NCBI RefSeq assembly: GCF_030433855.1
Contig: NZ_JARUXC010000003.1
Span: 124,001 to 188,000 of the forward strand
DNA from: Agreia sp. PsM10
Lineage (GTDB): Bacteria > Actinomycetota > Actinomycetes > Actinomycetales > Microbacteriaceae
DNA: 64,000 bases
Direction of reading: 5' to 3'
Part shown: piece after piece, positions 10,965 through 35,553 of the stretch
Layout: every line of letters starts with the position of its first letter
How positions within the stretch are numbered: the first letter of the stretch is position 1
The notes under the pieces: generated by a model
What the model saw: only the letters and a program-made list of their open reading frames with translations
Told to the model about the DNA's origin: nothing
Database searches by the model: none
Position numbers and translations under genes: made by a program

Positions 10965-10967
10965 GAC

Positions 10968-11433: not shown

Positions 11434-11531
11434 TTCGTCGTACGAGCGCGCTTGTTCACGCGCTGCTCAGTCCGTCTGTCGTCAGTCGGTTCTGAGAACT
11501 GTGCGTGGTCAGAGCCTTCTGAGTTCTCTCG

Positions 11532-12330: not shown

Positions 12331-12341
12331 GATAACGACAG

Positions 12342-12371
12342 AAACGGCCCTCCCCGAAGGGAGGACCGTTT
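12342..12371 (-). terminator. Terminator of the ctaE-qcrCAB operon
   Basis: Minus-strand hairpin: AAACGG and CCTCC arms pair with GGAGG and CCGTTT with one mismatched pair, loop about six bases, followed on the minus strand by CTGTCGTTAT. It starts 22 bases after the qcrB stop. Confidence 0.75.
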
Positions 12372-12393
12372 CTGATCTCTTACGCGAGCGGAT

Positions 12394-15116: not shown

Positions 15117-15206
15117 GTGATTGCCTTTCGAGCTTTTCTTCGAGGAAGTCCCTGTCGGGAACGTCCTCGCCTCGGTGAAGAATGTGTGAGCGGCAGGGCC
15201 GCCGGA

Positions 15207-15995: not shown

Positions 15996-16059
15996 TCTCT
16001 TCACTCTTCTCACAACTCTCTTGATGCGTCGACCGGGGTTCGGGTGGGGGCCGGTTGAT

Positions 16060-16689
16060 CTATTTCAGCACGTAGATGACGAGGAACAGGCCGATCCAGA
16101 CCACGTCGACGAAGTGCCAGTAGTACGACACGACGATGGCGCTCGTCGCCTCGCGGTGCCCCATGTTCTTGACGGCGAAGATGCGGCCGATCACGAGCAG
16201 GAATGCGATGAGGCCGCCGGTGACGTGGAGGCCGTGGAAACCGGTGGTGAGGTAGAACGCGGAGCCGTATGCGCTGGAGCTGATGGAGATGCCCTCGGAC
16301 ACCAGCGTCGCGTACTCGAAGATCTGGCCCGACACGAAGATCGCACCGAGGAGGTAGGTCAGGAAGAACCACTCGGTGGTGCCCCACCTGTTCGGCTGCC
16401 ATCCGGTGGCGCGCGCCTGGAGACGCTCTGCGGCGAACACTCCCGCCTGGCAGGTGAACGAACTCGCCACGAGGATGATCGTGTTCACCAGCGAGAATGG
16501 AACGTTGAGCACGCTCGACTCGCTCTCCCACAGCGGACCGGAGGTGCTGCGGAGCGTGAAGTAGATGGCGAAGAGGCCGGCGAAGAACATCACCTCGCTT
16601 CCGAGCCACACGATTGTGCCCACTGCCACGACGTTCGGTCGTTGGATCAGCGGGGCACTCGAAGTCTGGGTCAGGGAGCTGCTCGTCAC
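16060..16689 (-). CDS. ctaE: Cytochrome c oxidase subunit III
   Basis: Non-catalytic oxidase subunit, 209 aa with five transmembrane helices, as usual in actinobacteria, which lack the first two helices of the seven-helix form. Seen: [50 protein letters not shown] and [15 protein letters not shown]. The GTG start 16689 has GGAGA directly upstream. First gene of the minus-strand operon that continues with qcrC, qcrA and qcrB, matching the supercomplex formed by these proteins. Confidence 0.96.
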
Positions 16690-16781
16690 TTCTCCATTAT
16701 GTCCGATATCAGCACAGGGTTTTTGCATTTGGGTGTGAGTGGCGCAGCCCATTGACACCCGGCCGGCAGGCGTTCGGCCTT

Positions 16782-16787
16782 TAGAAT
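16782..16787 (+). promoter_or_regulatory. Leaderless-type -10 element of trpD (TAGAAT)
   Basis: TAGAAT ends six bases before the trpD ATG, the spacing expected when transcription starts at the A of ATG. No ribosome binding site is visible between them. A TTGACA at 16752-16757 is 24 bases upstream of it, too far to be its -35. Confidence 0.5.
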
Positions 16788-16793
16788 CGGGAT

Positions 16794-17846
16794 ATGGCGT
16801 ACTCACAGTCCTGGTCCGAAATCCTTTCCTCGCTTCTCGCCCGGGACGACCTCTCGGTCTCCGAGGCATCGTGGGCGATGGACCAGGTGATGACGGGTCA
16901 GGCGTCCGACGCGCAACTCGCCGCATTCCTCATCGCCCTCAGGGCCAAGGGGGAGACGGTCGACGAGATCGTCGGATTCCGTGATGCGGTTCTCGATCAT
17001 GCCGTCAGCCTCGACGTCGACCCGATGGCGCTCGACATCGTCGGAACCGGGGGAGACAGGCACGGCACGGTGAACGTCTCCACCATGGCGTCGATCGTCG
17101 CGGCCGCGTCGGGCGTGCCGGTGGTCAAGCACGGGAACCGCGCAGCCAGCTCGAAGTCGGGATCCTCCGACGTGCTGCAGGCCCTCGGCGTCGACCTCGA
17201 CATCACCAATGTGCGAACGGCAGAGGTCCTCGACGAGGCGGGAATCACGTTCGCGTTCGCCTCGAAGTTCCACCCCGGGTTCGGCAACGTCGCCAATGTG
17301 AGACGGGAGCTGGGCGTGCCCACCGTCTTCAACTACCTGGGCCCGCTGTGCAATCCCGCGCGACCCGAGGCATCCGCTGTGGGGGTGGCGCAACTCGATC
17401 GCGTGCCGATCTTCGTGGGCGTTTTCCAGACGCGCGGCGCCACCGCTCTCGTCTTCCGCGGCGACGACGGGCTCGACGAGCTGACCACGACAGGTCACAG
17501 CCACATCTGGGAGGTCTCTCTCGGAGCGGTCGTCGAGCATGACCTCGATCCTCGTGACCTCGGCATCGCCCGTGCGCAGATCGGCGATCTGCTCGGCGGC
17601 GACGCCGAGCACAACGCCGACATCGCACGCCGCGTCCTCCAGGGGGAGGTGGGCCCCGTGAGGGACATCGTGCTGCTGAACGCCGCCGCGGGTCTCGTGG
17701 CCTTCGACCTCGCCTCGGATCCGGAGCAGGGACGGCGGCCGATCGTCGAGCGCCTGCGCGAGAAAATGGCCGTCGCCGCCCGGACGATCGATTCCGGTGC
17801 GGCGACGGCCACTCTCGACGCGTGGGCCGAAGCCACGCGTCACTGA
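16794..17846 (+). CDS. trpD: Anthranilate phosphoribosyltransferase
   Basis: Second step of tryptophan synthesis, joining anthranilate to PRPP. The 350-aa length is usual. Seen: [18 protein letters not shown] (PRPP-binding GTGGD motif), [21 protein letters not shown] and the metal-site pair in the DGLDE segment. It stands alone, separate from other trp genes. The ATG probably begins a leaderless mRNA. The stop is one base away from the convergent glpK stop. Confidence 0.96.
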
Positions 17847-17847
17847 C

Positions 17848-19362
17848 TCACTGGGTGTCTTCGTCGACCCAGTCGAGGGTCTTCGTGACGGCCTTCTTCC
17901 AGTTGCGCAGCAGGCGGTCTCGCTCTGCCGCGTCCATGCTCGGAGTCCAGCGCTTGTCCTCCTGCCAGTTGTCGCGCAGTTCGTCGAGGGTCGACCAGAA
18001 GCCGACGGCCAGGCCGGCCGCGTAGGCCGCGCCCAGCGCCGTGGTCTCGGCCACGACCGGTCGCACGACGGGCACGTCGAGGATGTCGGCCTGGAACTGC
18101 ATCAGACGGTCATTGGCGGATGCTCCGCCGTCGACCTTGAGCTCCGTGAGGGGCACACCCGAGTCGGCGTTCACGGCGTCCAGAACCTCGCGTGTCTGGA
18201 AGGCGATCGCCTCGATGGCGGCGCGGGCGATATGGCCCTTGTTCACGTACCGGGTCAGTCCGACCAGCGCGCCCCGGGCATCCGATCGCCAGTGCGGCGC
18301 GAAGAGGCCGGAGAAGGCCGGCACGAAGTACGCGCCGCCGTTGTCGTCGACCGTGTCTGCCAGCGCCTCCACCTCGGGTGCCGAGGAGATGATTCCGAGG
18401 TTGTCGCGCAGCCACTGGATGAGCGATCCGGTGACGGCGATGGAGCCTTCGAGGGCGTAGTGGGTCTCGCCGTCGCCGAGCTTGTAGCCGATGGTGGTGA
18501 GCAGGCCGTTCTCGCTCTTGACGATGTCGGTGCCGGTGTTGAAGATCAGGAAGTTTCCCGTGCCGTAGGTGTTCTTCGCCTCGCCCTTGTCGAAGGCGGC
18601 CTGGCCGAACGTGGCGGCCTGCTGGTCGCCCAGGATTCCGGCGACGGGTACCTCGCGCAGCAGACTGGAGTCGTGGACGAGCCCGTACGTCTCCGACGAG
18701 CTCTTCACCTCGGGAAGCATCGACTTCGGCACGTTGAACACCGCAAGGATGTCGTCGTCCCACTCGAGCGTCTCGAGGTTGAGGAAGAGGGTGCGGCTGG
18801 CGTTCGTGACGTCGGTGATGTGCACGCCGCCGTCGACGCCGCCGGTCAGATTCCAGGTGACCCAGCTGTCGGTCGTGCCGAACAGCAGGTCCCCGGCTTC
18901 AGCGCGCTCACGGGCGCCTTCGACGTTCTCGAGGATCCAGACGATCTTTGTTCCGGCGAAGTACGTCGACAGGGGGAGTCCGACGATGTCCTTGAACCGG
19001 TCGACCCCGCCGTCGGCGGCGAAGCGGTCGACGATCTCCTGCGTGCGGGTGTCCTGCCAGACGATGGCGTTGTAGATGGGTTCGCCCGTGTTCTTGTCCC
19101 ATACCACCGCGGTCTCGCGCTGGTTCGTGATGCCCACGGCCTTGATGTTGTGGCGCGTGATGTTGGCCTTCGACAGCGCCTGGCCGATGACCTCACGCGT
19201 GTTGTCCCAGATCTCTTTGGGGTTGTGCTCGACCCAGCCCGCCTTCGGGAAGATCTGCTCGTGCTCGAGTTGGCCGGTCGAGACGATCGAGCCCGAGTGG
19301 TCGAAGACGATCGCCCTGGTGCTGGTCGTTCCCTGGTCGATCGCGAGAATGTAGTCCGTCAT
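17848..19362 (-). CDS. glpK: Glycerol kinase
   Basis: Phosphorylates glycerol to sn-glycerol 3-phosphate. FGGY-family kinase of 504 aa starting [21 protein letters not shown] (ATP-binding segment); also seen are [40 protein letters not shown] and the C-terminal [19 protein letters not shown]. It lies downstream of glpF on the same strand, 83 bases away, with a hairpin between. A 5' SD-like AAAGGAG precedes the ATG. Confidence 0.97.
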
Positions 19363-19407
19363 TGTCTAACTCCTTTGTTGAGTCCTGAGGTTCGTGGGTG
19401 ACACGAG

Positions 19408-19440
19408 AGCGGGCCCGTCACGATCATGTGCGGGCCCGCT
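19408..19440 (-). terminator. Hairpin between glpF and glpK
   Basis: A perfect 10-bp inverted repeat (AGCGGGCCCG and its complement) with a 13-base loop, just after the glpF stop on the minus strand and 46 bases before the glpK start. There is no clear U-run, so it may be a weak terminator or an mRNA-stabilising hairpin between two genes of one operon. Confidence 0.5.
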
Positions 19441-19445
19441 GTGTG

Positions 19446-20207
19446 TCAGGTGAGGATGGGGAGGAGGGGCACGGCGGCGAAGCCGGCCAGGACGCCTCCG
19501 ACGATGGGGCCGAGGACCGGGACCCAGGAGTAGGACCAGTCGGAGGAGCCCTTGCCCTTGATCGGGAGGATGAAGTGCGCAATGCGCGGGCCGAGGTCAC
19601 GGGCCGGGTTGATGGCGTACCCGGTCGGGCCACCAAGGGATGCGCCGATCGCGATCACGAGGATCGCCACGGGAAGAGCACCCAGGGCTGCGAGGCCGCC
19701 CTCACCCTGCCTGCCGCCCCCGAAGCCGATGACCACGAACACCAGCACGAACGTGCCGATGACCTCGGTCAGGAAGTTCCACCCGTAGGAGCGGATCGCC
19801 GGTCCGGTGGAGAACACGCCGAGCTTGTTGGCCGCGTCGGGCTCTTCGTCGAAGTGCTGCTTGTAGGCGAGCCAGACGAACACGGCGCCGATGATCGCAC
19901 CCAGCAGCTGGGCGGCGATGTAGGTGAGGATCGACACGATGTTCACGGGAACGCCGGAGCCGAACTCGGTCGCGCCGTTCGCGACGAGGCCGAGGGTGAC
20001 GGCGGGGTTCAGGTGCGCACCACTGTTGTACGACACGATCACACCCGAGAACACGGCGAAGCCCCACCCGATGTTCACCATCAGGAACCCGCCATTGAAA
20101 CCCTTGTTCTTCACGAGCGCCACGTTGGCGACGACGCCGCAACCGAGAAGAACGAGCAGGGCCGTGCCTACCAGTTCAGCGAGAAATACAACTCCGAGAT
20201 TGTCCAC
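19446..20207 (-). CDS. glpF: Glycerol uptake facilitator (MIP/aquaglyceroporin)
   Basis: Membrane channel for glycerol, 253 aa with six transmembrane helices and the two half-helix NPA motifs, [11 protein letters not shown] and [11 protein letters not shown]. The Asp after the second NPA (NPARD) is the usual mark of glycerol-conducting members rather than strict water channels. GTG 20207 ([14 protein letters not shown]) has AAGGAAGG six bases upstream. It pairs with glpK for glycerol entry and trapping and is divergent from dhaKLM. Confidence 0.94.
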
Positions 20208-20223
20208 GTCGACCTTCCTTCGT

Positions 20224-20239
20224 GTGACGTCTATGTCAC
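20224..20239. promoter_or_regulatory. Inverted repeat GTGAC-N6-GTCAC upstream of glpF
   Basis: A perfect 5-bp dyad with a six-base spacer, 17 bases upstream of the glpF start. It resembles a CRP/GlxR-type half-site pair but with a wider spacing than TGTGA-N6-TCACA, so the binding protein is uncertain. Confidence 0.35.
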
Positions 20240-20273
20240 CTTGTGCAGAACCCCACATCAAGCGGTTGACTAC

Positions 20274-20306
20274 ACCATATCCGCAGGGATCTGCGGCGCA
20301 TATGGT
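20274..20306. promoter_or_regulatory. Extended dyad in the glpF-dhaK intergenic region
   Basis: Arms ACCATAT and ATATGGT enclose a second inverted repeat CCGCAG-GGAT-CTGCGG, with a three-base CGC bulge. It sits near the middle of the 237-bp divergent intergenic region and may be an operator controlling both directions. No regulator gene is adjacent. Confidence 0.45.
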
Positions 20307-20444
20307 CTGGCGGGCAAAAGTCCAGACACTTCCGTGGAACTCGGGCGAACAAGTAGATTTGGCAGTGCGAGCTGCGCTCCCGCGCGGCTCCCTGAGCCGT
20401 TCCAGGCCCAGGTCGCACGGCACCATCAAAGAGGATTGCCACTC

Positions 20445-21446
<1,002 letters not shown>

Positions 21447-21451
21447 ACGAC

Positions 21452-22090
21452 ATGACGTTGGACACGGCATGGGCCGTTCGCTGGATCAGGGCGAGTGCCG
21501 CCGTCATCTCCGAGCACCGGGTCGAGCTCATCACGCTCGACCGCGACATCGGCGACGGTGACCACGGAGAGAATCTCGATCGGGGGTTCTCGGCCGTTCT
21601 GCCGAAGCTCGACGATCTGGCCGACGATGCCACGCCGGCGGATGCGCTCAAGCTCGTCGCGACGACGCTGATCTCGACCGTGGGCGGTGCGGCAGGCCCG
21701 CTGTACGGCACCGCGTACCTGAAGGCGGCAGGTGCGATCGCCGGACAGGCCGAGCTCGACGGCGCGGCGATCGTGGCCCTGCTCACGGCCGCTCGTGACG
21801 GCGTCGTCCTGCGAGGCAAGGCCGCCCCGGGCGACAAGACCATGGTGGATGCCTGGACGCCCGCCGTCGACGCGGCCGCGGCCGCCCTGTCGAACGGCTC
21901 GGACGAAGCAGGAATCCTCGACGCCGCCGCGACGGCGGCGGAGGGCGGCGCCCGGGCCACGGAGCCGCTCGTAGCGCACAAGGGTCGGGCGAGCTACCTG
22001 GGGGAGAGGGCCATCGGGCATCGCGATCCCGGTGCTCAGTCCTCGGCCCTGCTGCTCCGTGCCGCCGCGGACACGGCGACGGACGCCTGA
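21452..22090 (+). CDS. dhaL: Dihydroxyacetone kinase, ADP-binding subunit DhaL
   Basis: Nucleotide-carrying subunit that transfers phosphate to dihydroxyacetone bound on DhaK. The 212-aa protein has the three Mg-ADP aspartates in LDRDIGDGDHGENLDRGF, followed by TVGGAAGPLYGTAYLKA and RGKAAPGDKTMVDAW, all characteristic of DhaL. In the PTS-dependent system the bound ADP is rephosphorylated by DhaM. ATG 21452 was chosen; GTG 21434, which overlaps the dhaK end, is the alternative. Confidence 0.95.
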   Translation: MTLDTAWAVRWIRASAAVISEHRVELITLDRDIGDGDHGENLDRGFSAVLPKLDDLADDATPADALKLVATTLISTVGGAAGPLYGTAYLKAAGAIAGQAELDGAAIVALLTAARDGVVLRGKAAPGDKTMVDAWTPAVDAAAAALSNGSDEAGILDAAATAAEGGARATEPLVAHKGRASYLGERAIGHRDPGAQSSALLLRAAADTATDA

Positions 22091-22091
22091 T

Positions 22092-22787
22092 ATGGCGCCG
22101 GTGGCCGGCAAGGTCGGGTTGGTCTTCGTCTCGCACAGCTCCAAGATCGCGGAGGGGCTGGTCGAACTCGCGCAGCAGATGGCCGGGACCACGGCGATGG
22201 CAGCCGCCGGAGGCACGGACGAGGGCGGAATCGGCACGAGCTTCGAGCGAGTCGGGGAGGCCATCGCCTCGGTCGACTCGGGGGAGGGTGTCGTCGTACT
22301 GTGCGACCTGGGCTCGGCCATCCTCACGGCCGAGACGGCGAAGGACTTCCTCGACGATGACGTGCGCGATCGCGTGGTGATCGTGGACGCCCCGCTCGTC
22401 GAGGGTGCCGTCGCCGCATCCGTCGAGGCCGAGTCGGGCGCCGACCTCGGCGCGGTGGTGGCCGCCGCCCGGTCTGCGATCGGCGCGTTCGCTGCCGGCG
22501 ACCCGCATCCGGTCGCCGACGAGACGACATCGGGGTATTCCCGCAGCGTGACCATCGTGAACACCGACGGGCTGCACGCCCGGCCGGCCGCCGAGTTCGT
22601 GAAGCTGGCCAATTCGCTCGGGGTTCCGGTCACGGTCAACGGGGCGGATGCACGAAGCCTGCTGGGCATCATGTCGATGGGGCTCGTCAAGGGCCGATCG
22701 GTCGAATTGTCGACGCCGAGCCCCGACGGCAGGGCCGCTGTGGATGCGCTGGCCGAGCTCGTGGAGTCGGGTTTCGGCGAGTCGTAG
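22092..22787 (+). CDS. dhaM: PTS-dependent dihydroxyacetone kinase phosphotransferase DhaM (EIIA-HPr fusion)
   Basis: Phosphoryl donor for DhaL. The 231-aa protein has an N-terminal mannose-EIIA-like domain (VGLVFVSHSSKIAEGL with the active His, GGTDEGGIGTS, VVVLCDLGSAILTAE) and a C-terminal HPr-like domain from about residue 150 (NTDGLHARPAAEFVKLAN with the phospho-His, SLLGIMSMGLVKG). It lacks the enzyme I-like third domain of E. coli DhaM, so it needs a separate enzyme I encoded elsewhere. The ATG lies one base after the dhaL stop. Confidence 0.93.
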   Translation: MAPVAGKVGLVFVSHSSKIAEGLVELAQQMAGTTAMAAAGGTDEGGIGTSFERVGEAIASVDSGEGVVVLCDLGSAILTAETAKDFLDDDVRDRVVIVDAPLVEGAVAASVEAESGADLGAVVAAARSAIGAFAAGDPHPVADETTSGYSRSVTIVNTDGLHARPAAEFVKLANSLGVPVTVNGADARSLLGIMSMGLVKGRSVELSTPSPDGRAAVDALAELVESGFGES

Positions 22788-22816
22788 TCACTCTGTGCAC
22801 TACGTCGGGTGCGCCT

Positions 22817-23056
22817 CTACGAGGAGACATCGACCGTTGTCGGACCGATGAGGACGACGAGGCTGGCGACCGCGACGAAGGCGCAGCCGATCGTCACGCA
22901 CCCCCAGATCGATCGGCTGAGAAGCAGTTCCGTTCTACGGGTCATGCTCGACGACCACGCCAGGATCGAGGCGAGCAGCGCGAGCGCGAGGGCGAAGCAG
23001 GCGGCGCTCGACGACAGAGCGGCGAAGACGACGTCGAACGATCCCCATGCCGACAT
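22817..23056 (-). CDS. Small hypothetical two-helix membrane protein
   Basis: A 79-aa reading frame with hydrophobic stretches at about residues 12-33 (AACFALALALLASILAW) and 50-72 (IWGCVTIGCAFVAVASLVVLIG). ATG 23056 has a strong GGAGGT six bases upstream, the main reason to believe it. I do not recognise a family. It is convergent with dhaM. Confidence 0.5.
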   Translation of the reverse strand: MSAWGSFDVVFAALSSSAACFALALALLASILAWSSSMTRRTELLLSRSIWGCVTIGCAFVAVASLVVLIGPTTVDVSS

Positions 23057-23184
23057 GAACCGACCTCCAGAGCGCCCGGGGACCACCGAGGCGGTGAAGA
23101 TCCCTCACTGACCTAGACGGGCGTCCGTGCCGATCATGACGGCGCATTCGTCAGACGGCGCACCGCAACGGCGGGGGAGAGGAG

Positions 23185-23538
23185 TCAGGCGGCCTGCCAC
23201 AGCTCGATGCGATTGCCCTCCGGATCGACGACCCAGCCGAACCGACCGACCCCGTCCATCGTCTCGGTGCGAGGGTCGACCTCCGCTCCCGCGGAGCGGA
23301 GCTGCTCGAGCATCGCGTCGAGGTCGGCGACGCGGAAGTTCAGCATCATCTGCTGCGAGGGGGATCCGAGGTAGTCGCTTGTGCGATCGAACGTCGCGAG
23401 AATCGTGGGCCCTGCCTGCTGCTGCCACGGGTCCGACGGGTCGGTGCCGATTCCGAGATTGTCGCGGTACCAGGCGGACAAGGCGTCGGGATCCGACGAA
23501 CGCATGAACACTCCGCCGACGCCCAGAACTCGCTCCAT
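23185..23538 (-). CDS. VOC family (glyoxalase/bleomycin resistance fold) protein
   Basis: A 117-aa single-module vicinal oxygen chelate protein. Seen: the opening MERVLGVGGVFMRSSDPDAL then WYRDNLGI, central QMMLNFRVADLDAML, and the closing beta strand WVVDPEGNRIELWQ with its putative metal Glu. The substrate is unknown; members range from dioxygenases to drug-binding proteins. The ATG was chosen at 23538, as upstream codons add non-family sequence. It ends just left of the dif-containing stretch. Confidence 0.82.
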   Translation of the reverse strand: MERVLGVGGVFMRSSDPDALSAWYRDNLGIGTDPSDPWQQQAGPTILATFDRTSDYLGSPSQQMMLNFRVADLDAMLEQLRSAGAEVDPRTETMDGVGRFGWVVDPEGNRIELWQAA

Positions 23539-23651
23539 GCCGACATCCTGCCGCCGAGAATGGAGTTGTGTAAAGAGGCCTGTTCCCTCACCCTGTCGAA
23601 AGGCGCGGATGTCGGCACCGGCTAGGCAGCGCCGGGCGCGGCGCGCGGGTG

Positions 23652-23679
23652 TGTTGACATAATGTGCATTATCGGACAT
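23652..23679 (-). other. dif: Candidate chromosomal dif site (XerC/XerD recombination)
   Basis: On the minus strand the 28 bases divide into an 11-bp arm ATGTCCGATAA, a 6-bp centre TGCACA and an 11-bp arm TTATGTCAACA. This is the layout of bacterial dif sites, with the conserved XerD arm beginning TTATGTNAA and the XerC arm ending GATAA or CATAA, as in E. coli. Dif lies in the replication terminus and serves chromosome dimer resolution. It lies in a gene-free stretch, as expected. Assignment rests on sequence pattern only. Confidence 0.7.
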
Positions 23680-23900
23680 TTGGTGGAGGCGGCGGAGCGG
23701 GGTCGATCAGCGACTGCGAGCCGGCCCGAGCCGGTCGCCCGATGGTCTCTGCACGGTGACTCTGTGCGCTCCGGCGCAGGCTGCTCCGGGTGGCGAGTCG
23801 ATGGCTGAAACTCTATGGCTGTGCGATGCGCTCATCTGGTGACGGGCCTGCACGACGACCGTCGCGCATCCGTGGCTCTGGCTCGTCACCGTGAAATCTC

Positions 23901-23910
23901 TTGACATAAT
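23901..23910 (-). repeat. Second copy of the XerD-arm decamer of the dif candidate
   Basis: TTGACATAAT here repeats positions 23654-23663 exactly and in the same orientation, 247 bases away. The sequence beyond it does not match a XerC arm, so it is a half-site at most. Confidence 0.5.
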
Positions 23911-23950
23911 CACAACCGGGCCAGAACAGACTCGTTGTCACGAACGACGC

Positions 23951-26305
23951 TCAGGCACCCACGTACCGTGCCAGGTATTCGCCGGTCAGGGTCGATCGTG
24001 CGTCGACGAGGTCGGACGGAGTTCCTTCGAAGACCACGGTGCCTCCGTCGTGGCCGGCGCCGGGCCCGATGTCGATGATCCAGTCGGCGTGAGCCATGAC
24101 CGCCTGGTGGTGCTCGATGACGATCACCGACTTTCCTGAGTCGACCAGCCGGTCGAGAAGGCCGAGCAACTGTTCGACGTCGGCGAGATGAAGCCCGGTG
24201 GTCGGCTCGTCGAGGATGTAGACGCCGCCCTGCTCCGACATGTGGGTGGCAAGCTTCAGGCGTTGCCTCTCTCCGCCGGAGAGCGTGTTCAAGGGCTGTC
24301 CGAGACGGATGTACCCCAGGCCGACGTCTGCCAGACGCTCCAGGATCGACTGGGCGGCCGGCGTGCGCGAGTCGCCGGTCGAGAAATACAGCAGCGCCTC
24401 GTCGACGCTCATGCCGAGGACCTCGCTGATGTCGCGCCCGTTCAGGTGGTAGTCGAGCACCGAGGCGTCGAAACGACGGCCCTCGCATACCTCGCAGGTG
24501 GTGGTGACGGAGGCCATCATGCCGAGGTCGGTGACGATCACGCCGGAGCCGTTGCAGTTCGGACAGGCCCCTTCCGAATTCGCACTGAACAGGGCGGGTT
24601 TGACGCCGTTCGCCTTGGCGAACGCCTTGCGGATGGGTTCGAGCAGTCCCGTGTATGTCGCCGGGTTGCTGCGACGGGACCCTCGGATGGCGCCCTGGTC
24701 GACCGAGACGACGCCGTCACGACCCGCGATCGAGCCGTGGATGAGCGAGCTCTTGCCCGAGCCCGCGACGCCCGTGACGACGGTGAGGATGCCGGTGGGA
24801 ACGTCGACGTCGACGTCGCGCAGGTTGTGCGTTCGCGCCCCGCGGATCTGCAGGGCACCGGTGCGCGTTCGCACGGTCTTCTTGAGGGTGTGCCGGTCGT
24901 CGAAATGGATGCCGGTCAGGGTGCCGCTCCCCCGCAGCCCGTCGACGGTGCCCTCGAAACAGACCTCGCCTCCCGCGGTGCCCGCGCGCGGCCCGAGGTC
25001 GACGATGTGGTCGGCGATGGCGATCGTCTCGGGCTTGTGTTCGACGACGAGAACGGTGTTGCCCTTGTCGCGCAGTTGCAGGAGGAGGCCGTTCATGCTC
25101 TGGATGTCGTGGGGGTGCAGACCGATGGTCGGCTCGTCGAAGACATAGGTGACGTCGGTCAGGGAAGAGCCCAGGTGCCGGATCATCTTCGTGCGCTGCG
25201 CCTCGCCGCCCGAGAGCGTGCCCGCGGGTCGATCGAGCGAGAGGTATCCCAGTCCGATCTCGACGAAGGAGTCGAGCGTGTGCTGCAGGGCGCTCAGCAG
25301 GGGCGCGACCGACGGCTCGTCGATCGTGCGCACCCATTCGGCGAGATCGCTGATCTGCATGGCACAGGCATCGGCGATGTTGATCTCGCCGATGCGGGAG
25401 GAGCGCGCGCCCTCGTTGAGACGCGTGCCCGAACACTCCGGACAGGTCGTGAAAGTGACTGCCCGGTCGACGAAGGCCCGGATGTGGGGCTGCATCGCCT
25501 CCCGGTCCTTCGACAGGAACGACTTCTGTACCTTGGGGACGAGTCCCTCGTAGGTCATGTTGATGTCGCCGACCTTGATCTTGACGGGCTCGTGATAGAG
25601 GAAGTCGTCGAGCTCCTTCGTCGTGTAGTCGCGGATCGCCTTGTCGGCGTCGAGGAATCCGGAGCCCGTGAAGATGCGTACTCCCCACCCGTCTGCCGTG
25701 TATCCCGGAATGGTCAGGGCGCCCTCGTTGAGCGATTTGCTGTCGTCGTAGAGCTGGGTGAGGTCGATGTCGTTGACCTTGCCCATGCCCTCGCAGCGGG
25801 GGCACATGCCCCCGGTGACCGTGAAACTGCGGCGTTCTCTGACCTCTCGCCCGCCCTTCTCCATCGTGACGGCGCCGGCGCCGCTGACCGAGGGAACGTT
25901 GAAAGCGAATGCCTGTGGCGAGCCGAGGTGGGGCTGGCCCAGTCTGCTGAAGACGATCCTCAGCATCGCGTTCGTATCGGTCGCCGTTCCGACGGTCGAG
26001 CGCGAGTTTGCCCCCATGCGTTCCTGGTCGACGATGATCGCGGTCGTCACGCCCTCGAGCACGTCGACGTAGGGACGGGCGAGCGTCGGCATGAATCCCT
26101 GCAGGAATGCGCTGTAGGTCTCATTGATCATGCGTTGCGACTCGGCGGCGATCGTGGCGAACACCAGGGAGCTCTTGCCCGACCCCGAGACACCGGTGAA
26201 GACGGTGAGGCGTCGTTTCGGGATGTCGACGCTGACATCCTTCAGGTTGTTCTCGCGGGCACCCTGCACACGGATGCGGTCGTGGTTGTCGGCTGCCGTG
26301 CTCAT
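23951..26305 (-). CDS. Compact UvrA-like excinuclease ATPase (UvrA paralogue)
   Basis: ABC-type DNA-binding ATPase of the UvrA family, 784 aa against about 950 for housekeeping UvrA, so it belongs to the short paralogue group that includes DrrC-like drug-resistance proteins. Two ATPase modules are visible: Walker A GVSGSGKSSLVF (N) and GVAGSGKSSLIHG (C), signatures LSGGEAQR and LSGGERQR, and Walker B regions VFDEPTIGLHPHD and ILDEPTTGLHLAD. Zinc-finger cysteines are seen in CPRCEGMG, CPECSGTRLN and CPNCNGSG with CEVCEGRRF. Roles could be DNA repair or protection against DNA-binding compounds. It precedes no uvr gene; a Nudix gene lies upstream on the same strand. Confidence 0.9.
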   Translation of the reverse strand: MSTAADNHDRIRVQGARENNLKDVSVDIPKRRLTVFTGVSGSGKSSLVFATIAAESQRMINETYSAFLQGFMPTLARPYVDVLEGVTTAIIVDQERMGANSRSTVGTATDTNAMLRIVFSRLGQPHLGSPQAFAFNVPSVSGAGAVTMEKGGREVRERRSFTVTGGMCPRCEGMGKVNDIDLTQLYDDSKSLNEGALTIPGYTADGWGVRIFTGSGFLDADKAIRDYTTKELDDFLYHEPVKIKVGDINMTYEGLVPKVQKSFLSKDREAMQPHIRAFVDRAVTFTTCPECSGTRLNEGARSSRIGEINIADACAMQISDLAEWVRTIDEPSVAPLLSALQHTLDSFVEIGLGYLSLDRPAGTLSGGEAQRTKMIRHLGSSLTDVTYVFDEPTIGLHPHDIQSMNGLLLQLRDKGNTVLVVEHKPETIAIADHIVDLGPRAGTAGGEVCFEGTVDGLRGSGTLTGIHFDDRHTLKKTVRTRTGALQIRGARTHNLRDVDVDVPTGILTVVTGVAGSGKSSLIHGSIAGRDGVVSVDQGAIRGSRRSNPATYTGLLEPIRKAFAKANGVKPALFSANSEGACPNCNGSGVIVTDLGMMASVTTTCEVCEGRRFDASVLDYHLNGRDISEVLGMSVDEALLYFSTGDSRTPAAQSILERLADVGLGYIRLGQPLNTLSGGERQRLKLATHMSEQGGVYILDEPTTGLHLADVEQLLGLLDRLVDSGKSVIVIEHHQAVMAHADWIIDIGPGAGHDGGTVVFEGTPSDLVDARSTLTGEYLARYVGA

Positions 26306-26326
26306 GGATTCCCTCTCGTCGAACAG

Positions 26327-26797
26327 TCAGCAGGATGCGAGCTGGCCGCGCAGGAGCCGAGCGAGGTTCTCGGGTTCGACCGGGTCGGCGGTCGTCTCGA
26401 GCTCGCGCAGGCTCCACCACCGCTGGTCGATGATGTCTACCTTCTCCTCGGGCGTCCACCTCGTCGAATCGACCTCGAATCGCCGGGTGCGGAAGGAGTA
26501 CCACGCCTCGTGGTGCGCGGCCCAGACGCCGGGAGCCCGTTCGGCCACGAAGTCGCGGGTCGAGAACGGTGCTCCCGGATCGTCGATGACGAGGCCTGTC
26601 TCCTCGAAGAGTTCGCGCACGGCGGCCGTGCGATGGTCTTCGCCCGGCTCGAGGTGCCCGCCCGTCGTCAGCCACCTGGCCGGATAGCCGTCGACGTCGT
26701 GGCGGGTCAGCATGAGCAGCACGTGGTCGTACTGGTCGACGAGAAGCACTCGTGACTTCGCATAGACGACGTCGGTGGTCGTGGCGTGCACGCTCAT
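26327..26797 (-). CDS. NUDIX hydrolase
   Basis: A 156-aa nucleoside-diphosphate-X pyrophosphatase-fold protein. The Nudix box is complete: GGHLEPGEDHRTAAVRELFE followed by ETGL. A substrate-specificity region lies in the C-terminal half (WAAHHEAWYSFRTRRFEV). The substrate cannot be predicted. It sits 21 bases upstream of the UvrA-like gene on the same strand and downstream of the SDR gene, so the three may be cotranscribed, perhaps in nucleotide or DNA damage clean-up (inference). Confidence 0.9.
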   Translation of the reverse strand: MSVHATTTDVVYAKSRVLLVDQYDHVLLMLTRHDVDGYPARWLTTGGHLEPGEDHRTAAVRELFEETGLVIDDPGAPFSTRDFVAERAPGVWAAHHEAWYSFRTRRFEVDSTRWTPEEKVDIIDQRWWSLRELETTADPVEPENLARLLRGQLASC

Positions 26798-26819
26798 GCC
26801 GGCCGGTTCGTTCTGGATC

Positions 26820-27590
26820 TCAGTCGACGGGCGTGAAGTCGCTGATGTCGCCGACGTACCGCGTGTGATTCACGGGAATCGGCTCGACGGCGGCGAGTGC
26901 GACCTCGGCGGCGAACTCCCCCACGTTGTACAGGCGGCCGGCCGACTCCTTGCGCGAACTGATCGCGCCCGGATTCGCTCGCTCGAGGAGGGTGGCCGTG
27001 ATCGTTCCCTCGATCATGTCTCCCGAGACGACGACGAACTCGATGCCCTTCTCGTCGAGCTCGGGGATGAGTGCGCGGAGCGCGTCCTCCCCTGCACGCT
27101 TCGACAGGGCCACCGGAACGTACTCCGGCATGGTCTCGGTCGTGTGGATGAAGTGCGCCTGGTGGCTGGTGACGAAGACGACTCGTGAGCCCGGGGCGAG
27201 CAGGGGCACGGCGCTCGTGAGCACGTTGAGCTGGGCATCGCGGTTGAGCGTCATGGCGTAGTCGGCGGCCATGCCGCCCTCCATGCCCCCCGAGGCGTTC
27301 AGGACGAGAACGTCGAGTCCGCCGAACTCGGACTGGATGCGCTCGAACAGCTGGGCGACCGAGGAGGGGTCGGTGAGATCGGCTCCGACCGTGATGGCCT
27401 CTCCCCCGGACTCGGCGATCTTCGCTGCCAGCTTGAGGGCTCGCGCCTCTTTATTGCGGAAGTTGATGGCGACCCGGGCGCCGGCCGCGGCGAAGTACGA
27501 CACGGTGTCGGCGCCGATTCCACGCGATGAGCCGGTGACGAGCACGCGCTTCGCGGCCATGGATTCGGGTTGCAGGGGGTTTGTTGACAC
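26820..27590 (-). CDS. Short-chain dehydrogenase/reductase (SDR) family oxidoreductase
   Basis: A 256-aa Rossmann-fold protein with the NAD(P) motif VTGSSRGIGADT, NFRNKEA after beta-2 (suggesting NADP preference), GADLTDPSS, LVLNASGG (NNAG-type motif) and an atypical active site: the Ser is in VFVTSHQAHF, but the usual YXXXK position reads YVPVALSKRAGED, where Tyr and Lys are separated by more than three residues. GTG 27590 has AAAGGAG upstream; an internal ATG at 27560 would shorten it by ten residues. The substrate is unknown. Confidence 0.85.
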   Translation of the reverse strand: MSTNPLQPESMAAKRVLVTGSSRGIGADTVSYFAAAGARVAINFRNKEARALKLAAKIAESGGEAITVGADLTDPSSVAQLFERIQSEFGGLDVLVLNASGGMEGGMAADYAMTLNRDAQLNVLTSAVPLLAPGSRVVFVTSHQAHFIHTTETMPEYVPVALSKRAGEDALRALIPELDEKGIEFVVVSGDMIEGTITATLLERANPGAISSRKESAGRLYNVGEFAAEVALAAVEPIPVNHTRYVGDISDFTPVD

Positions 27591-27698
27591 TCTCGGTGCT
27601 CCTTTGACTCTGGCTCCCGAGACTACCAAGTCAGGGTCATGCACTCAGGCGTTGCTGGTAGTTTTGAGGAATACATCGACGAGAGGAGTCGTGTACAG

Positions 27699-28172
27699 AT
27701 GGTCGAATTCCTGGCGTCCTACGCGTGGACGATCTGGCTGGCCCTGGTGCTGGTCTTTCTCATCGTCGAGATGTTCAGTCTCGAATTCACGTTCCTCATG
27801 ATCGCTCTGGGCAGCGTCGGCGGTCTCGTCTCCAGCCTCGTCGGGGTTCCCTGGTTCTTGCAGATCGTGATCGCGGCTGCGATCTCGCTTCTCCTCATCT
27901 TCACCATCCGCCCTCCGTTGCTCCGGGCTCTTCGGCGGGGCGGCGACCCCACGAAGAGCAACGTGGATGCGCTCATCGGGCTCGAGGGCATCGTCACGAC
28001 GCGGCTCACGAAGGGCGGCGGTCACGTCAAGCTCTCCAATGGAGACATCTGGACGGCTCGGGTCTCCCCCATCACCGACGCGGCGGATGTCGACCTCGGT
28101 CAGAGGGTGCTCGTGACCGCCATCGACGGCGCCACGGCATTCGTGGTCCCCGCAGAAAGGACAGCGCTGTGA
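27699..28172 (+). CDS. NfeD family membrane protein
   Basis: A 157-aa NfeD-like protein with two or three transmembrane helices (about residues 10-70: WTIWLALVLVFLIVEM, FLMIALGSVGGLVSSL, FLQIVIAAAISLLLIF) and a soluble OB-fold at the C-terminus (GLEGIVTTRLTKGGGHVKL, RVLVTAIDGATAFVVP). NfeD proteins work with SPFH/stomatin partners in membrane organisation. The next gene is such a partner and overlaps by GTGA, so the two form a translationally coupled pair. Confidence 0.9.
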   Translation: MVEFLASYAWTIWLALVLVFLIVEMFSLEFTFLMIALGSVGGLVSSLVGVPWFLQIVIAAAISLLLIFTIRPPLLRALRRGGDPTKSNVDALIGLEGIVTTRLTKGGGHVKLSNGDIWTARVSPITDAADVDLGQRVLVTAIDGATAFVVPAERTAL

Positions 28173-29089
28173 CCGGTTCGGATTCCTCCATCGTCGGACA
28201 GATCGTGGTGATCGCGATCATCGTGGTGATCGTCATCTTCGTTCTGGTGATCCTCGCCCGCTCGATCCGCATCATCCCTCAGGCCACGGCCGGAGTCGTG
28301 GAGCGGCTCGGCGCCTATCACAAGACCCTCGAGCCGGGCCTTCGGGTGCTCGTGCCCTTCATCGACCGGCTCCGTCCCCTCATCGACCTGCGCGAGCAGG
28401 TCGTGTCGTTCCCACCGCAGCCCGTGATCACCGAGGACAACCTCGTCGTGTCGATCGACACGGTGGTGTTCTTCCAGGTCACCGACGCCCGCGCGGCCAC
28501 CTACGAGATCGCCAACTATCTCGGGGCGGTCGAACAGCTTGCAACCACCACATTGCGCAACGTGGTCGGTGGCCTCAATCTCGAACAGGCGCTCACCAGC
28601 CGCGACGAGATCAACGGGCAGCTGCGCATCGTGCTCGACGAGGCCACGGGAAAGTGGGGCATCCGAGTCGGACGGGTCGAGCTGAAGGCGATCGATCCTC
28701 CCCTGTCGATCCAGGATTCGATGGAGAAGCAGATGCGCGCCGAGCGTGAGCGTCGCGCCGTCATCCTCACCGCCGAGGGCACGAAGCAGTCCGCGATCCT
28801 CGAGGCAGAGGGTCACCGACAGGGCGAGATCCTTCGTGCCGAGGGCGACGCCCAGGCGGCCGTGCTGCGCGCGAAGGGCGAGGCCGAGGCCATCACCACC
28901 GTGTTCGGGGCGATCCACCAGGGTGAGCCCGACCAACTGCTCCTCGCCTATCAATACCTGCAGACCCTCCCCAAACTCGCGGAGGGTTCGGCGAACAAGC
29001 TCTGGATCATCCCGAGCGAACTCACCGAGGCGCTCAAAGGAATAGGGCAGGCATTCGGCGACCGTGGCCCGACGACACCGACCAGCTGA
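28169..29089 (+). CDS. SPFH domain / stomatin-like (band 7) membrane protein
   Basis: A 306-aa stomatin/prohibitin homologue. One N-terminal transmembrane helix (IVVIAIIVVIVIFVLVILA) precedes the SPFH domain (RIIPQATAGVVERLGAYHKT, LEPGLRVLVPFID, DLREQVVSFPPQPVITEDN) and a coiled-coil rich in E-A-E repeats (AEGTKQSAILEAEGHRQGEI). Such proteins oligomerise in membrane microdomains and act with NfeD or proteases. The GTG start overlaps the nfeD stop; the GDPD gene overlaps its 3' end by 26 bases. Confidence 0.94.
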   Translation: MTGSDSSIVGQIVVIAIIVVIVIFVLVILARSIRIIPQATAGVVERLGAYHKTLEPGLRVLVPFIDRLRPLIDLREQVVSFPPQPVITEDNLVVSIDTVVFFQVTDARAATYEIANYLGAVEQLATTTLRNVVGGLNLEQALTSRDEINGQLRIVLDEATGKWGIRVGRVELKAIDPPLSIQDSMEKQMRAERERRAVILTAEGTKQSAILEAEGHRQGEILRAEGDAQAAVLRAKGEAEAITTVFGAIHQGEPDQLLLAYQYLQTLPKLAEGSANKLWIIPSELTEALKGIGQAFGDRGPTTPTS

Positions 29090-29870
29090 CCGCGGCGAGT
29101 GGTTCTCGCCGCCCGCTCCGCGGGTGCTGGCGCATCGAGGACTCGCCCTTGACGCGCCCGAGAACACGCTCGCGGCGTTCGACGCCGCGCTGCGTCGAGG
29201 GGCGATCTACATCGAGACGGACGTTCACGCATCCCGCGACGGCGTGGCGATGATCGCGCACGATCCGAGTCTGCTGCGAGTCGCCGGCATCGACGCCGAG
29301 GTCGCGAATATGACAACCGATGAGTTGCAGAAGGTCGACCTGGGCGACGGCCATCGCATGCCGACGCTCCTCGACGCCCTGAGAGCCTTTCCGCAGGCGC
29401 GGTTCAACATCGACGTCAAGTCGCAGCGCGCGGGAGTCGCGATCGCGCGCGCCGTGATCGAGGCGGGCGCCACTGGTCGTGTGCTCGTGACGTCGTTCTC
29501 GGCCAGCCGCCGGGCTGTGGCACTCGATCTCCTCCCGGGGGTCGCGAACTCGGCCAGCGCCCCTCGCTTCGTCGCCATCCTCGCTCTGGCGAAGCTCGGT
29601 GTGCTCGGGCTCGCCCCCTGGGTTGTCGGTGGCGTCGACGCCGTGCAGGTCCCCCCGAGGCGCGGCCGGCTCTCGATCGCGACGCCGCGCGTCGTGCGAG
29701 CGCTTCACCGCCGAGGTGTCGAGATGCACGTGTGGACCATCAACGACCCCGACGAGATACGACGGCTCCTCGCGATGGGCGTCGACGGCATCGTCACCGA
29801 CAGATGCGACCTCGCACTCGACGTCGTGCGAAGCACGGCCGAAGACCGCTCGCCGGTTCCGCCCGCCTGA
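29064..29870 (+). CDS. Glycerophosphodiester phosphodiesterase
   Basis: TIM-barrel enzyme of 268 aa that hydrolyses glycerophosphodiesters to glycerol 3-phosphate and an alcohol. Seen: VLAHRGLALDAPENTLAAF (catalytic His-Arg), YIETDVHASRDGVAMIAHDP (metal Glu-Asp and second catalytic His), FNIDVKS, and C-terminal HVWTINDPDEIRRLLAMGVDG then TDRCD. No signal peptide, so it acts in the cytoplasm. The GTG start lies inside the end of the SPFH gene. Its product could feed the same glycerol phosphate pool as GlpK. Confidence 0.93.
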   Translation: MARRHRPADRGEWFSPPAPRVLAHRGLALDAPENTLAAFDAALRRGAIYIETDVHASRDGVAMIAHDPSLLRVAGIDAEVANMTTDELQKVDLGDGHRMPTLLDALRAFPQARFNIDVKSQRAGVAIARAVIEAGATGRVLVTSFSASRRAVALDLLPGVANSASAPRFVAILALAKLGVLGLAPWVVGGVDAVQVPPRRGRLSIATPRVVRALHRRGVEMHVWTINDPDEIRRLLAMGVDGIVTDRCDLALDVVRSTAEDRSPVPPA

Positions 29871-29910
29871 CCTGCAGACTCTCTGGGAGAGTTCTGGTAA
29901 AGCTCCGGCT

Positions 29911-29937
29911 GGGAAGAATTACCCCTGTTCTGGGGTT
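29911..29937 (+). promoter_or_regulatory. Possible SigH/SigR-type promoter of rbpA
   Basis: GGGAAG at 29911, an 18-base spacer and GTT at 29935 match the GGAA-N17-20-GTT pattern of thiol-stress sigma factors (SigH of mycobacteria, SigR of streptomycetes). It lies 36 bases upstream of the rbpA ATG. RbpA is a known member of this regulon in Streptomyces. A TATAAC-like -10 just downstream (about 29938-29943) may provide housekeeping expression. Confidence 0.5.
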
Positions 29938-29973
29938 TATAACGGTGTAAGCAACGCGAGAAAGGACCACACA

Positions 29974-30336
29974 ATGGCGGATCGCAGCTTGCGCGGAATG
30001 AGACTCGGAGGCCAAAGCCTCCAGACCGAAGAAGGCGTCGTCTTCTCCCCGCGCTTGACCCACACGTATCACTGTTCCTCCTGCGGAAAAGACACCGACA
30101 TGGTGTTCTCCGCAGAGGCCGAGGCTCCCGACACCTGGGAGTGCAAGTACTGCAGCATGGAAGCCACACGCATGGTCGGGTCTGAGCCCGTCGTCGTCGA
30201 GCACGCGGAGTCCAAGACGCCGCGAAGCCACTGGGACATGCTGCTCGAGCGTCGCACCCGTGCAGAGCTCGAGGAGCTCCTCGAGGAGCGGCTCACCTAC
30301 CTTCGTGCCCGCCGTGGCCATAAGGTCAACGCCTAG
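29974..30336 (+). CDS. rbpA: RNA polymerase-binding protein RbpA
   Basis: Actinobacterial transcription factor that binds sigma factor and core RNA polymerase and stabilises the open complex. The 120-aa protein has the N-terminal tail (MADRSLRGMRLGGQSLQ), a zinc-binding core with CSSC and CKYC, a basic linker (ESKTPRSHWDMLLERR) and the C-terminal sigma-interaction helix region (ELEELLEERLTYLRARRG). AAAGGA lies seven bases before the ATG. It has its own upstream control region and a strong terminator downstream. Confidence 0.97.
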   Translation: MADRSLRGMRLGGQSLQTEEGVVFSPRLTHTYHCSSCGKDTDMVFSAEAEAPDTWECKYCSMEATRMVGSEPVVVEHAESKTPRSHWDMLLERRTRAELEELLEERLTYLRARRGHKVNA

Positions 30337-30356
30337 TACTCATCACGGCACGATTC

Positions 30357-30391
30357 AGCGCCCCGGTCAGCGACAGCTGACACGGGGCGCT
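30357..30391. terminator. Bidirectional terminator between rbpA and lnt
   Basis: A 15-bp stem (AGCGCCCCG plus GTCAGC paired with their complements, one bulged A) with a four-base loop. It fits the 57-base gap between the convergent genes. Confidence 0.8.
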
Positions 30392-30393
30392 TG

Positions 30394-32034
30394 TCAGTTG
30401 ACCCGGCGTCGTGCGGCGGCGGTGGCCAGCGAGAGCACCAGGCCCGCGAGGCCCAGCCCAGACACGAGGAGTTCGATGCCCGCGCCCAGAAGTGTCGCCG
30501 GGCTGGTCCGGGTCGCGAGCGGAACGTCCGCGATCATCGATCCGGCCTCGTAGGGGGCGACCGATGCGATCGTCGAACCGTCCGGGGCGATGATCGCGCT
30601 GGTGCCCACCGTGGAGATGTTCACGACGCTGCGCCCTGTCTCGACGGCACGGAGGCGGGCGATCGCCAACTGCTGCAGGTTCTCGTCGGTCTTGCCGAAG
30701 TCGGCGTTGTTCGTCTGGGCGAGGATCACCTGGGCCCCGTCGCCCATCATCTCGCGGGCGACCGCGTCGTCGGTGATGTCGAAGCAGATGGAGATTCCCG
30801 CGATCACGCCGTTGATGTCGAAGACGGTGTCGGTGGTTCCCTTCGAGTAGTCGCGTGTCACGAGGTCGACCAGGTCGGGAACGATCGCTCGGAAGATTGC
30901 GCGCGCGGGCATGTACTCGGCGAACGGAACGGGGTGTCGCTTGTCGTAGTGGTCGACCGAACCGCTGCCGGCCTTCCAGAGCAGCGAGGTGTTGAAATAG
31001 GTGTCCTCGGACGGGTTCGTGATCGTGCCGACGATGAACGGCGCATTCATGGCCTCGCTCAGGTAGTCGAGCTGATCGGCCGCCAATTGCGATCGGGCGG
31101 GGTCGAGGTCCGAGCCGTTCTCGGGCCACACGACCATGTCGACCCTCTGATCGATGATCTTCAAGGTCTCGGCGGTCTGGTCGCTCAGCACGTCGCCGGC
31201 GGCACGCTCGGAGAACAGCGACGCGTCGGTGTTGCCCTGCACCGCGGCGATGCGCGACGTGCCCTCGGTCGGCGCGTACCAGGCGGGCACCGCGAGTGTG
31301 GCGACAACGGCCACGGCTGCCCACAGGACTCGAGTCCTCGCGAGGACTCCGGGCGTGCGCGCGAGTTCGACGAGGAATGCGACGAGCCAGACCATCACGA
31401 ACGAGAGTCCGGAGAATCCGATCCAGCCGACCAGCGACGCATAGGGGCTCTCGGACTGGGAGAAGACCACGCGTCCCCACGAGAATCCGCCCTCGGGCCA
31501 GACGGCCGTGAGGGCCTCCCTGGCCGTCCAGAGTCCGGCGACCACGACGGGCAGCATCAGAAGCCGGATGCCGGCGCCCGGCCAGGTGATCGACGCACGA
31601 CCGTAGACCACGGCGATCAGCGCTGCCCCGACGGCGAAGAAGAGCGACTGCAGAATCGCCAGAGCCAGCCACGGGATAGGCCCGAGGTACAGCGTGAGCC
31701 AGAAGATGTGCACGCCCCAGAAGGAGAAGCCGCCGACGAGGCCGATCAGCAGTGCACCCCAGAGACGCCGACCGATCAGGGAGACGAGCACGAGCCCGAT
31801 TCCCAGGAACGTGACCGGCCAGACGTCCTTGTCGGGGAAACCCGTGTCGAGAGCTACTCCCCCGGCCGCCGCCGTGAGGAGGGCGAGCCAGTACGGCATG
31901 ATCGGGCGCGCGCGCTCGCTCGGGATGGACGACGGCCCGGGCAGGCGAACGGATGCGCTGCCCCCGGGTCGGGGGCGAGACGATGGCGCTGCGGGGTGCG
32001 CGGCGACGTTCGGCGGGCTCAGCTCGACGACCAT
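30394..32034 (-). CDS. lnt: Apolipoprotein N-acyltransferase
   Basis: Adds the third acyl chain to lipoproteins at the outer face of the membrane. The 546-aa protein has about six to eight N-terminal transmembrane helices (residues 50-235) and a C-terminal nitrilase-type domain with the expected catalytic residues: Glu in VVWPENGSD, Lys in HYDKRHPVPFAEYMP and Cys in ISICFDI. A final transmembrane helix follows. ATG 32034 is preferred because GGTGG lies seven bases upstream; GTG 32040 overlaps the helY stop. Last gene of the trmI-to-lnt run. Confidence 0.92.
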   Translation of the reverse strand: MVVELSPPNVAAHPAAPSSRPRPGGSASVRLPGPSSIPSERARPIMPYWLALLTAAAGGVALDTGFPDKDVWPVTFLGIGLVLVSLIGRRLWGALLIGLVGGFSFWGVHIFWLTLYLGPIPWLALAILQSLFFAVGAALIAVVYGRASITWPGAGIRLLMLPVVVAGLWTAREALTAVWPEGGFSWGRVVFSQSESPYASLVGWIGFSGLSFVMVWLVAFLVELARTPGVLARTRVLWAAVAVVATLAVPAWYAPTEGTSRIAAVQGNTDASLFSERAAGDVLSDQTAETLKIIDQRVDMVVWPENGSDLDPARSQLAADQLDYLSEAMNAPFIVGTITNPSEDTYFNTSLLWKAGSGSVDHYDKRHPVPFAEYMPARAIFRAIVPDLVDLVTRDYSKGTTDTVFDINGVIAGISICFDITDDAVAREMMGDGAQVILAQTNNADFGKTDENLQQLAIARLRAVETGRSVVNISTVGTSAIIAPDGSTIASVAPYEAGSMIADVPLATRTSPATLLGAGIELLVSGLGLAGLVLSLATAAARRRVN

Positions 32035-32036
32035 GC

Positions 32037-35287: not shown

Positions 35288-35292
35288 CGTGC

Positions 35293-35553
35293 CTATGGCT
35301 TTGGCTTGGACTCAGGCGAGACGACGCTCGGCGTCTGGTCGGCGACCGGCGCGGCCTGTGCTGAGGAGTCGGACGCGGCAGCGTCGGACGGAGACGCGTT
35401 CTCGTCTTTCATCGTCTTGACCTCGCTGCGGAAGATGCGCATCGACTGGCCGAGGCTGCGTGCGAGACCCGGGAGCTTCGGAGCACCGAAGAGCAGAACG
35501 ACGACGACGAGAATGATGAGTAGGTGAGGCCACCCAAATGCGTTACCGAGCAT
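35293..35553 (-). CDS. tatA: Sec-independent protein translocase subunit TatA
   Basis: Pore-forming component of the Tat system, 86 aa. One N-terminal transmembrane helix (HLLIILVVVVLLFGAPKLPGLAR) with the hinge FGAPKLP, then an amphipathic helix (SLGQSMRIFRSEVKTM) and a low-complexity acidic tail. It overlaps the upstream small membrane protein by 11 bases and is followed by tatC. Confidence 0.95.
   Translation of the reverse strand: MLGNAFGWPHLLIILVVVVLLFGAPKLPGLARSLGQSMRIFRSEVKTMKDENASPSDAAASDSSAQAAPVADQTPSVVSPESKPKP

Follow-up and report, generated by a model that had tools for sequence, protein, structure and literature searches.

Once replication ends, the cell unlinks its doubled chromosomes at dif. 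Another kind of site, the SMC-unloading site, is a XerD arm without a XerC arm near ter, where bound XerD unloads SMC. In Bacillus subtilis, XerD sites at the terminus, attributed to Karaboja and colleagues in 2021, are said to unload SMC and to work without XerC and dif. As cited in the available passages of later papers, they resemble by description the locus reported here, in which a putative XerD site also lies near the terminus and apart from dif. The present one differs in belonging to an actinobacterium and in lying on one side of dif, mostly in one orientation relative to it.

Kono et al. (2011; PMC3025954), who predicted dif sites, quote that of the actinobacterium Frankia alni, which shares with ours a single copy, a place near the terminus and the 22-base core CCGATAATGCACATTATGTCAA, identical to the F. 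alni dif as quoted there. The outer bases differ, and the available part of that article mentions no further half-site. According to the available text of PMC2830990, (T/C)GGGGGAG is a known architecture imparting sequence that was used for finding dif in Corynebacterium aurimucosum. The same octamers and the same switch of polarity at dif are found here, whereas C. aurimucosum belongs to another family and in Agreia the switch is bracketed to 1.8 kb. Our analysis of polarity is therefore a known method applied to a new genome. In the plasmid systems cer and psi, accessory sequences of about 200 bp adjoin the XerC site (available text of PMC11724359). Their likeness to our locus is this length of about 200 bp on the XerC side, but they are bound by ArgR or ArcA with PepA and are not a lone XerD site.

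The dif site and its machinery

The window is the whole stretch of DNA analysed, 64,000 nucleotides of the draft genome of Agreia sp. PsM10 (4,010,356 bases in 106 contigs), at positions C42:124001-188000 of the 409-kb contig C42. The dif site, its parts and the neighbouring genes are as follows:

23652..23679, minus strand: dif, chromosome dimer resolution site; core shared with the published F. alni dif; the draft genome contains no other match
23669..23679, minus strand: XerC-binding arm ATGTCCGATAA, from the sequence, the arm assigned by established dif anatomy
23663..23668, minus strand: 6-bp central region TGCACA, from the sequence
23652..23662, minus strand: XerD-binding arm TTATGTCAACA, from the sequence, the arm assigned by established dif anatomy
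23185..23538, minus strand: glyoxalase/VOC-like gene on the XerD side of dif (PF18029, 43.5 bits; PF00903, 32.9 bits)
23951..26305, minus strand: gene of a UvrA-like ABC protein on the XerC side (TIGR00630, 663.9 bits, under the cut-off of 729.8)

On the minus strand the 28 bp read ATGTCCGATAA-TGCACA-TTATGTCAACA, in the 11-6-11 arrangement of a chromosomal dif and with arms matching the dif of the phylum. At up to three mismatches the dif pattern matched once in the window (100 shuffles gave no match) and once in the whole 4.01-Mb draft genome, where the pattern read backwards gave none. The expectation of one copy per chromosome thus agrees with what is seen, as judged on a draft genome. At the same threshold 91 of 99 genomes (our own and relatives) have a match and 8 have none, and the backwards control matched once in total across the same 99. 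The core is without mismatch in all eight Agreia genomes. With stricter patterns, matches were obtained in 83 of 118 genomes of a class-wide sample and in all 41 genomes of another family, the Micrococcaceae.

Some genomes carry more than one dif-like sequence. A second, weaker match with two mismatches lies on the small contig C2 of the Agreia genome G006. G033 has five matches (up to three mismatches) on contigs C3 and C4 plus two on C1; those on C3 and C4 are perhaps Xer modules of plasmids. Extra dif-like sites are also present in G052, G048 and G228. All seven genomes sampled from the genus g101 (7.1-9.9 Mb) are without a match at up to one mismatch, perhaps owing to linear chromosomes.

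XerD is encoded at C42:8502-9428 (345 bits; NCBIfam cut-off 329.6). A second recombinase, on contig C64, scores best as XerC (316 bits, under the cut-off of 335), and a FtsK gamma domain is encoded as well (81.5 bits, cut-off 30.6). The genome thus encodes XerD, FtsK gamma and a XerC candidate, the last under its cut-off, as expected with a chromosomal dif. Downstream of xerD, in the same direction, come a ParA-like gene, scpA and scpB (C42:8502-11825), a cluster that links the dif recombinase with the SMC complex; SMC itself is encoded on C64.

We conclude, with a probability of about 0.96, that this actinobacterium has its chromosomal dif at 23652-23679, at the terminus; taken by itself, this dif is of an ordinary and known kind. 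It is almost certainly wrong that the 28 bp are a chance match or a decoy and that the true dif lies elsewhere: a gap in the 106-contig draft could hide another site, but the match is the single one in the draft genome, its core is identical in all 7 other Agreia genomes, and the polarity of GGGGGAG switches at this very position (see below). The original prediction of a 28-bp site with dif architecture therefore holds, on the minus strand; the search that it proposed for further matches in the genome found none in the draft, and the proposed comparison with the dif of relatives agrees with it. Its placement of dif in a gene-free stretch of 412 bases (23539-23950) is correct provided that 23538 is the start of the glyoxalase-like gene and 23951 the end of the UvrA-like gene. 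An ATG within dif (23679) opens a longer minus-strand frame; the sole version tested for the glyoxalase domain was the short one, 23185-23538, which matched.

A C-rich block, GACCCCGCTCC (window about 23694-23704), starts 29 bases before the dif core. It is similar in other Agreia and in some other genera; considered as an element near -25 from the core it was set aside, being weakly conserved in the family (0.3-0.4 bit in the best columns). Farther away on the contig are two islands of low GC content, C42:20001-35000 and C42:300001-310000 (0.59-0.64, relative to about 0.68). The second, perhaps a mobile element, contains a weak XerD-family match at 302115.

Sequence polarity and the terminus

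The strand polarity of 6- to 8-mers around dif was counted on the contig and in samples of G006. GGGGGAG is the top 7-mer, with 92 copies toward dif and 3 away from it in our genome and 65 to 1 in G006. Over the 409-kb contig 128 of 131 copies point at dif, and the best switch falls between C42:147173 and 148927, i.e. window 23173-24927. Within the window all 31 copies point at dif:

732..59176, both strands: 31 GGGGGAG architecture (KOPS-like) motifs, 16 on the plus strand (732 to 23173) and 15 on the minus strand (24927 to 59170)

The longer CGGGGGAG points toward dif in all 87 of its occurrences on the contig, and the reversed control GAGGGGG gives 33 to 18. In G006 the first 100 of 436 copies of CGGGGGAG (29745-914240, with dnaA at 70) are all on the plus strand. 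Within about 6 kb of dif, GGGGGAG points toward it in 177 of 178 cases over our locus and 16 others, of which those of G005 and G051 are truncated at one end; the 15 loci that played no part in finding the motif give 156 of 157. The exception lies in G024. Polarity motifs are known from other bacteria, namely GGGNAGGG, GAGAAGGG and GAAGAAG. None of these shows polarity toward dif on the contig, where GAAGAAG points away from it more often than toward it (81 to 45); in the G006 samples GGGNAGGG leans toward dif (38 to 20).

The distance between dnaA and dif is 0.376-0.492 of the chromosome in the 12 relatives for which it was computed (the single-contig genomes G061, G062, G070 and G089 were left out; our own genome is in contigs). 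GC skew proved a weak marker of the terminus. On the contig it reaches its minimum 12.2 kb from dif, at C42:135472 (window 11472), and passes from negative to positive along the plus strand, the reverse of the usual sign at a terminus. In G006, a near-complete relative, the sampled skew is also weak (between -0.036 and +0.037), and the same change of sign occurs near dif, yet already before it.

A chromosomal dif is expected at the polarity switch of its chromosome; judged by GGGGGAG our site is there, the skew minimum being 12.2 kb away. The claim of the original prediction that dif places the terminus in this window and sets the polarity of the flanking replichores is thus borne out by the GGGGGAG switch, 128 of 131 motifs on the contig conforming to it. 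The skew analysis that it recommended was run on the contig and, with a displaced minimum and a reversed sign, lends the terminus poor support. Since the site is the sole one in the draft, since XerD, a XerC-like protein and FtsK gamma are encoded and since GGGGGAG switches there, dif marks the terminus and the polarity of the replichores. Together, dif and the motif switch locate the terminus within 1.8 kb in a draft genome.

By established knowledge, XerC and XerD would bind the two arms of dif, and the GGGGGAG motifs would guide FtsK to it. FtsK would bring sister dif sites together at the septum and switch on recombination in the 6-bp centre, so that chromosome dimers would be resolved; the replichores would meet near dif. 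This mechanism appears to involve no departure from what is established for XerCD, FtsK and KOPS.

A solitary XerD half-site on the XerC side of dif

A second putative XerD site accompanies dif:

23895..23909, minus strand: solitary XerD half-site TTATGTCAAGAGATT, a copy of TTATGTCAA with a footprint in 6 of 8 Agreia genomes

It is found about 230 bp from dif, on the XerC side and in the orientation of dif, and starts 41 bases past the stop of the UvrA-like gene. By eye, no XerC arm precedes it; it thus has the make-up of a XerD SMC-unloading site, a XerD arm without a XerC arm near ter. From its identity with the XerD arm we infer that XerD alone would bind it. On the 409-kb contig TTATGTCAA has two copies, in dif and at window 23901-23909, on the same strand and 247 bp apart. 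The whole genome has 3 copies. In 16 genomes 43 copies were counted, 15 of them in dif and 9 of the 28 others within 1 kb of dif.

Our genome and five more of the eight Agreia genomes have the half-site 211-234 bp before the dif core and in the orientation of dif. Across these six the column identities of TTATGTCAAGAGATT are 666666666565665, and the 40 bases on either side reach identities of 2 to 5 of 6. The other copies of TTATGTCAA in the six genomes (seven loci, three of them aligned) lie in unrelated sequence, and background copies are therefore unconserved. G005 and G006 have no half-site, nor do they have the UvrA-like gene there, the contig of G005 starting 452 bp before dif and displaying just these bases on that side. 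This joint absence would suit a functionless remnant, left by a duplicated dif or by an element once integrated at dif, and Xer-using elements can leave partial sites. We regard such an origin as improbable: in six genomes the 15 bases hardly vary and the flanks are less conserved, a search for XerD-family matches found none within the window, and the same feature occurs on the same side of dif in other families.

The spread of the half-site was followed in 85 Micrococcales dif loci, one dif per genome, taken from the 99 genomes; left out were the 8 genomes without match, G010, G022, G027, G034, G080 and G096, and second dif-like matches. The XerC-side region, -800 to -45 from the core, was compared with +45 to +800, and 8-mers present in at least 8 loci (at least 6 in the same-strand list) were ranked. 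The most enriched XerC-side 8-mer is TTATGTCA, present in 20 of 85 loci where base composition predicts 0.34. Its sites number 21 on the XerC side (16 in the orientation of dif, 5 in the opposite one) and 1 on the other side. Variants of TTATGTCA with one mismatch show no XerC-side enrichment in the 85 loci.

When Agreia is left aside, 16 of the 77 remaining loci together have 17 exact sites within 1.5 kb of dif, of which 15 lie upstream and 2 downstream; the other 61 have none in that range, some loci being shorter. Simulated sequence for these 77 loci gave a mean of 1.35 sites and a maximum of 5 in 100 runs, a comparison that, like the next, overstates significance because related genomes are not independent. 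Of 30 Micrococcaceae loci, obtained from 41 genomes, 9 carry TTATGTMA upstream, at 10 sites that all share the orientation of dif, and 2 sites lie downstream; the simulated upstream mean was 0.42 and the maximum 3 in 60 runs. Two of these loci are also among those of the 85 that have half-sites. Three (L219, L221, L225) already belong to the 85, which leaves 27 new ones, where TTATGTCA has 6 upstream and 2 downstream sites. Over the combined 104 non-Agreia loci the count is 21 upstream to 4 downstream. Outside the order, 2 half-sites were found in 22 loci (L189-191, L200-218; some of them shorter), both upstream, counts too few to claim more.

We also scanned a genome collection (84,980 species) for a half-site followed after 198-228 bases by an exact dif core. 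The 15 loci retrieved are from 4 Agreia, 1 Microbacteriaceae bacterium and 10 Arthrobacter; being selected for half-site and spacing (209-236 bp), they enter no enrichment count. The Arthrobacter loci L124, L130 and L136 have 3-4 exact TTATGTCA in one direction before dif, with a 52-base period for the four copies of L124, and seven Arthrobacter loci of the scan have a copy of TTATGTAA or TTATGACA. In L125, L129, L130, L131, L133, L136 and L137, all Arthrobacter, the half-site nearest to dif is preceded at 1-2 bases by CGGGGGA, so that an architecture motif and a XerD arm are combined. The pairing does not hold generally: among the non-Agreia scan loci 7 of 11 show it, but in the Micrococcaceae loci, which were not chosen for a half-site, just 1 of 10 same-strand upstream sites does.

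A UvrA-like gene flanks dif on its XerC side in at least 18 of the 85 loci, our own included, from four families; the count is a lower bound, many dif loci spanning just 1.5-2 kb. That the half-site is a promoter or RNA element of the neighbouring genes seems very improbable. The plus strand reads TTGACATAAT, and one sigma-70-like match using CATAAT occurs at 23883-23910, 0.1 being expected. Against this, the transcript of that strand would run antisense into the UvrA-like gene, and the bases of the would-be first hexamer are unconserved in the genus. Neither a terminator-like site nor, up to E 0.5, a Rfam match was found at the half-site. Furthermore, in 13 of the 16 non-Agreia half-site loci the 1.5-6 kb covered contain no UvrA-like gene. 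The promoter, terminator and Rfam searches thus gave little.

Altogether, most dif loci are without an exact half-site, which is kept in most Agreia genomes and also occurs in some related bacteria. In the open-access literature searched, which was not limited to actinobacteria, we did not find a XerD half-site beside dif described. This is weak evidence of absence; as far as that search goes, the half-site makes the dif locus a variant that we did not find described.

Possible roles of the half-site

To judge by its sequence and conservation, we think that the half-site most likely serves to keep XerD beside dif for a job that would need no XerC arm. This job may be the unloading of SMC, a reading that we hold at a little under even odds. 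The half-site would then correspond, in an actinobacterium, to the terminal XerD sites of B. subtilis, and XerD bound to it without XerC would strip from the DNA the SMC-ScpAB arriving from the origin. The XerD arm is conserved without a XerC arm, SMC is encoded, and xerD is followed on one strand by the ParA-like gene and by the genes of the SMC partners, scpA and scpB. The three Arthrobacter loci with 3-4 exact half-sites also fit. In B. subtilis XerD is reported to unload SMC near ter, as cited in the available passages of later papers. On the other side, half-sites are nearly all on the XerC side (21 to 1 in the 85 loci, 21 to 4 in the 104 non-Agreia loci), a one-sidedness that SMC unloading does not itself explain. 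Moreover, the available text of PMC13342612 takes dif itself as the unloading site, and that of PMC11898615 has Corynebacterium glutamicum tolerating the loss of smc.

The bias to the XerC side, mostly in the orientation of dif, suggests a job tied to the geometry of dif. The half-site and the roughly 200 bp up to dif could be an accessory sequence for the dif synapse, like those of cer and psi; XerD at the outer end would help to wrap or loop the partner sites. We hold this slightly less likely than SMC unloading. The side and the length are similar to those of the plasmid accessory sequences: the distance is 211-234 bp in the six Agreia genomes, 222 bp in G035 and 209-236 bp in the spacing-selected scan loci, and the upstream sites follow the orientation of dif in 16 of 21 cases in the 85 loci and in 10 of 10 in the 30 Micrococcaceae loci. 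However, the intervening DNA is little conserved among Agreia genomes, and unselected half-sites lie anywhere from 49 to 745 bp from dif. Chromosomal dif sites, for their part, work with FtsK and without accessory sequences.

SMC unloading is favoured by the xerD-parA-scpA-scpB cluster, and an accessory role by side, orientation and likeness in place and length to the plasmid accessory sequences; by sequence the two appear inseparable. We tentatively propose, short of an even bet, that part of the Micrococcales may have a two-part dif locus, composed of dif and, toward the XerC arm, of at least one landing site for XerD only. Such sites would usually lie 0.2-0.75 kb from dif, mostly in its orientation, and would couple dimer resolution to SMC removal or to dif synapsis. 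The dif site is ordinary and mainly useful, and the half-site matters more. With a conserved lone putative XerD site by dif and a xerD gene adjoining scpA and scpB, a second role of XerD becomes directly testable in an actinobacterium.
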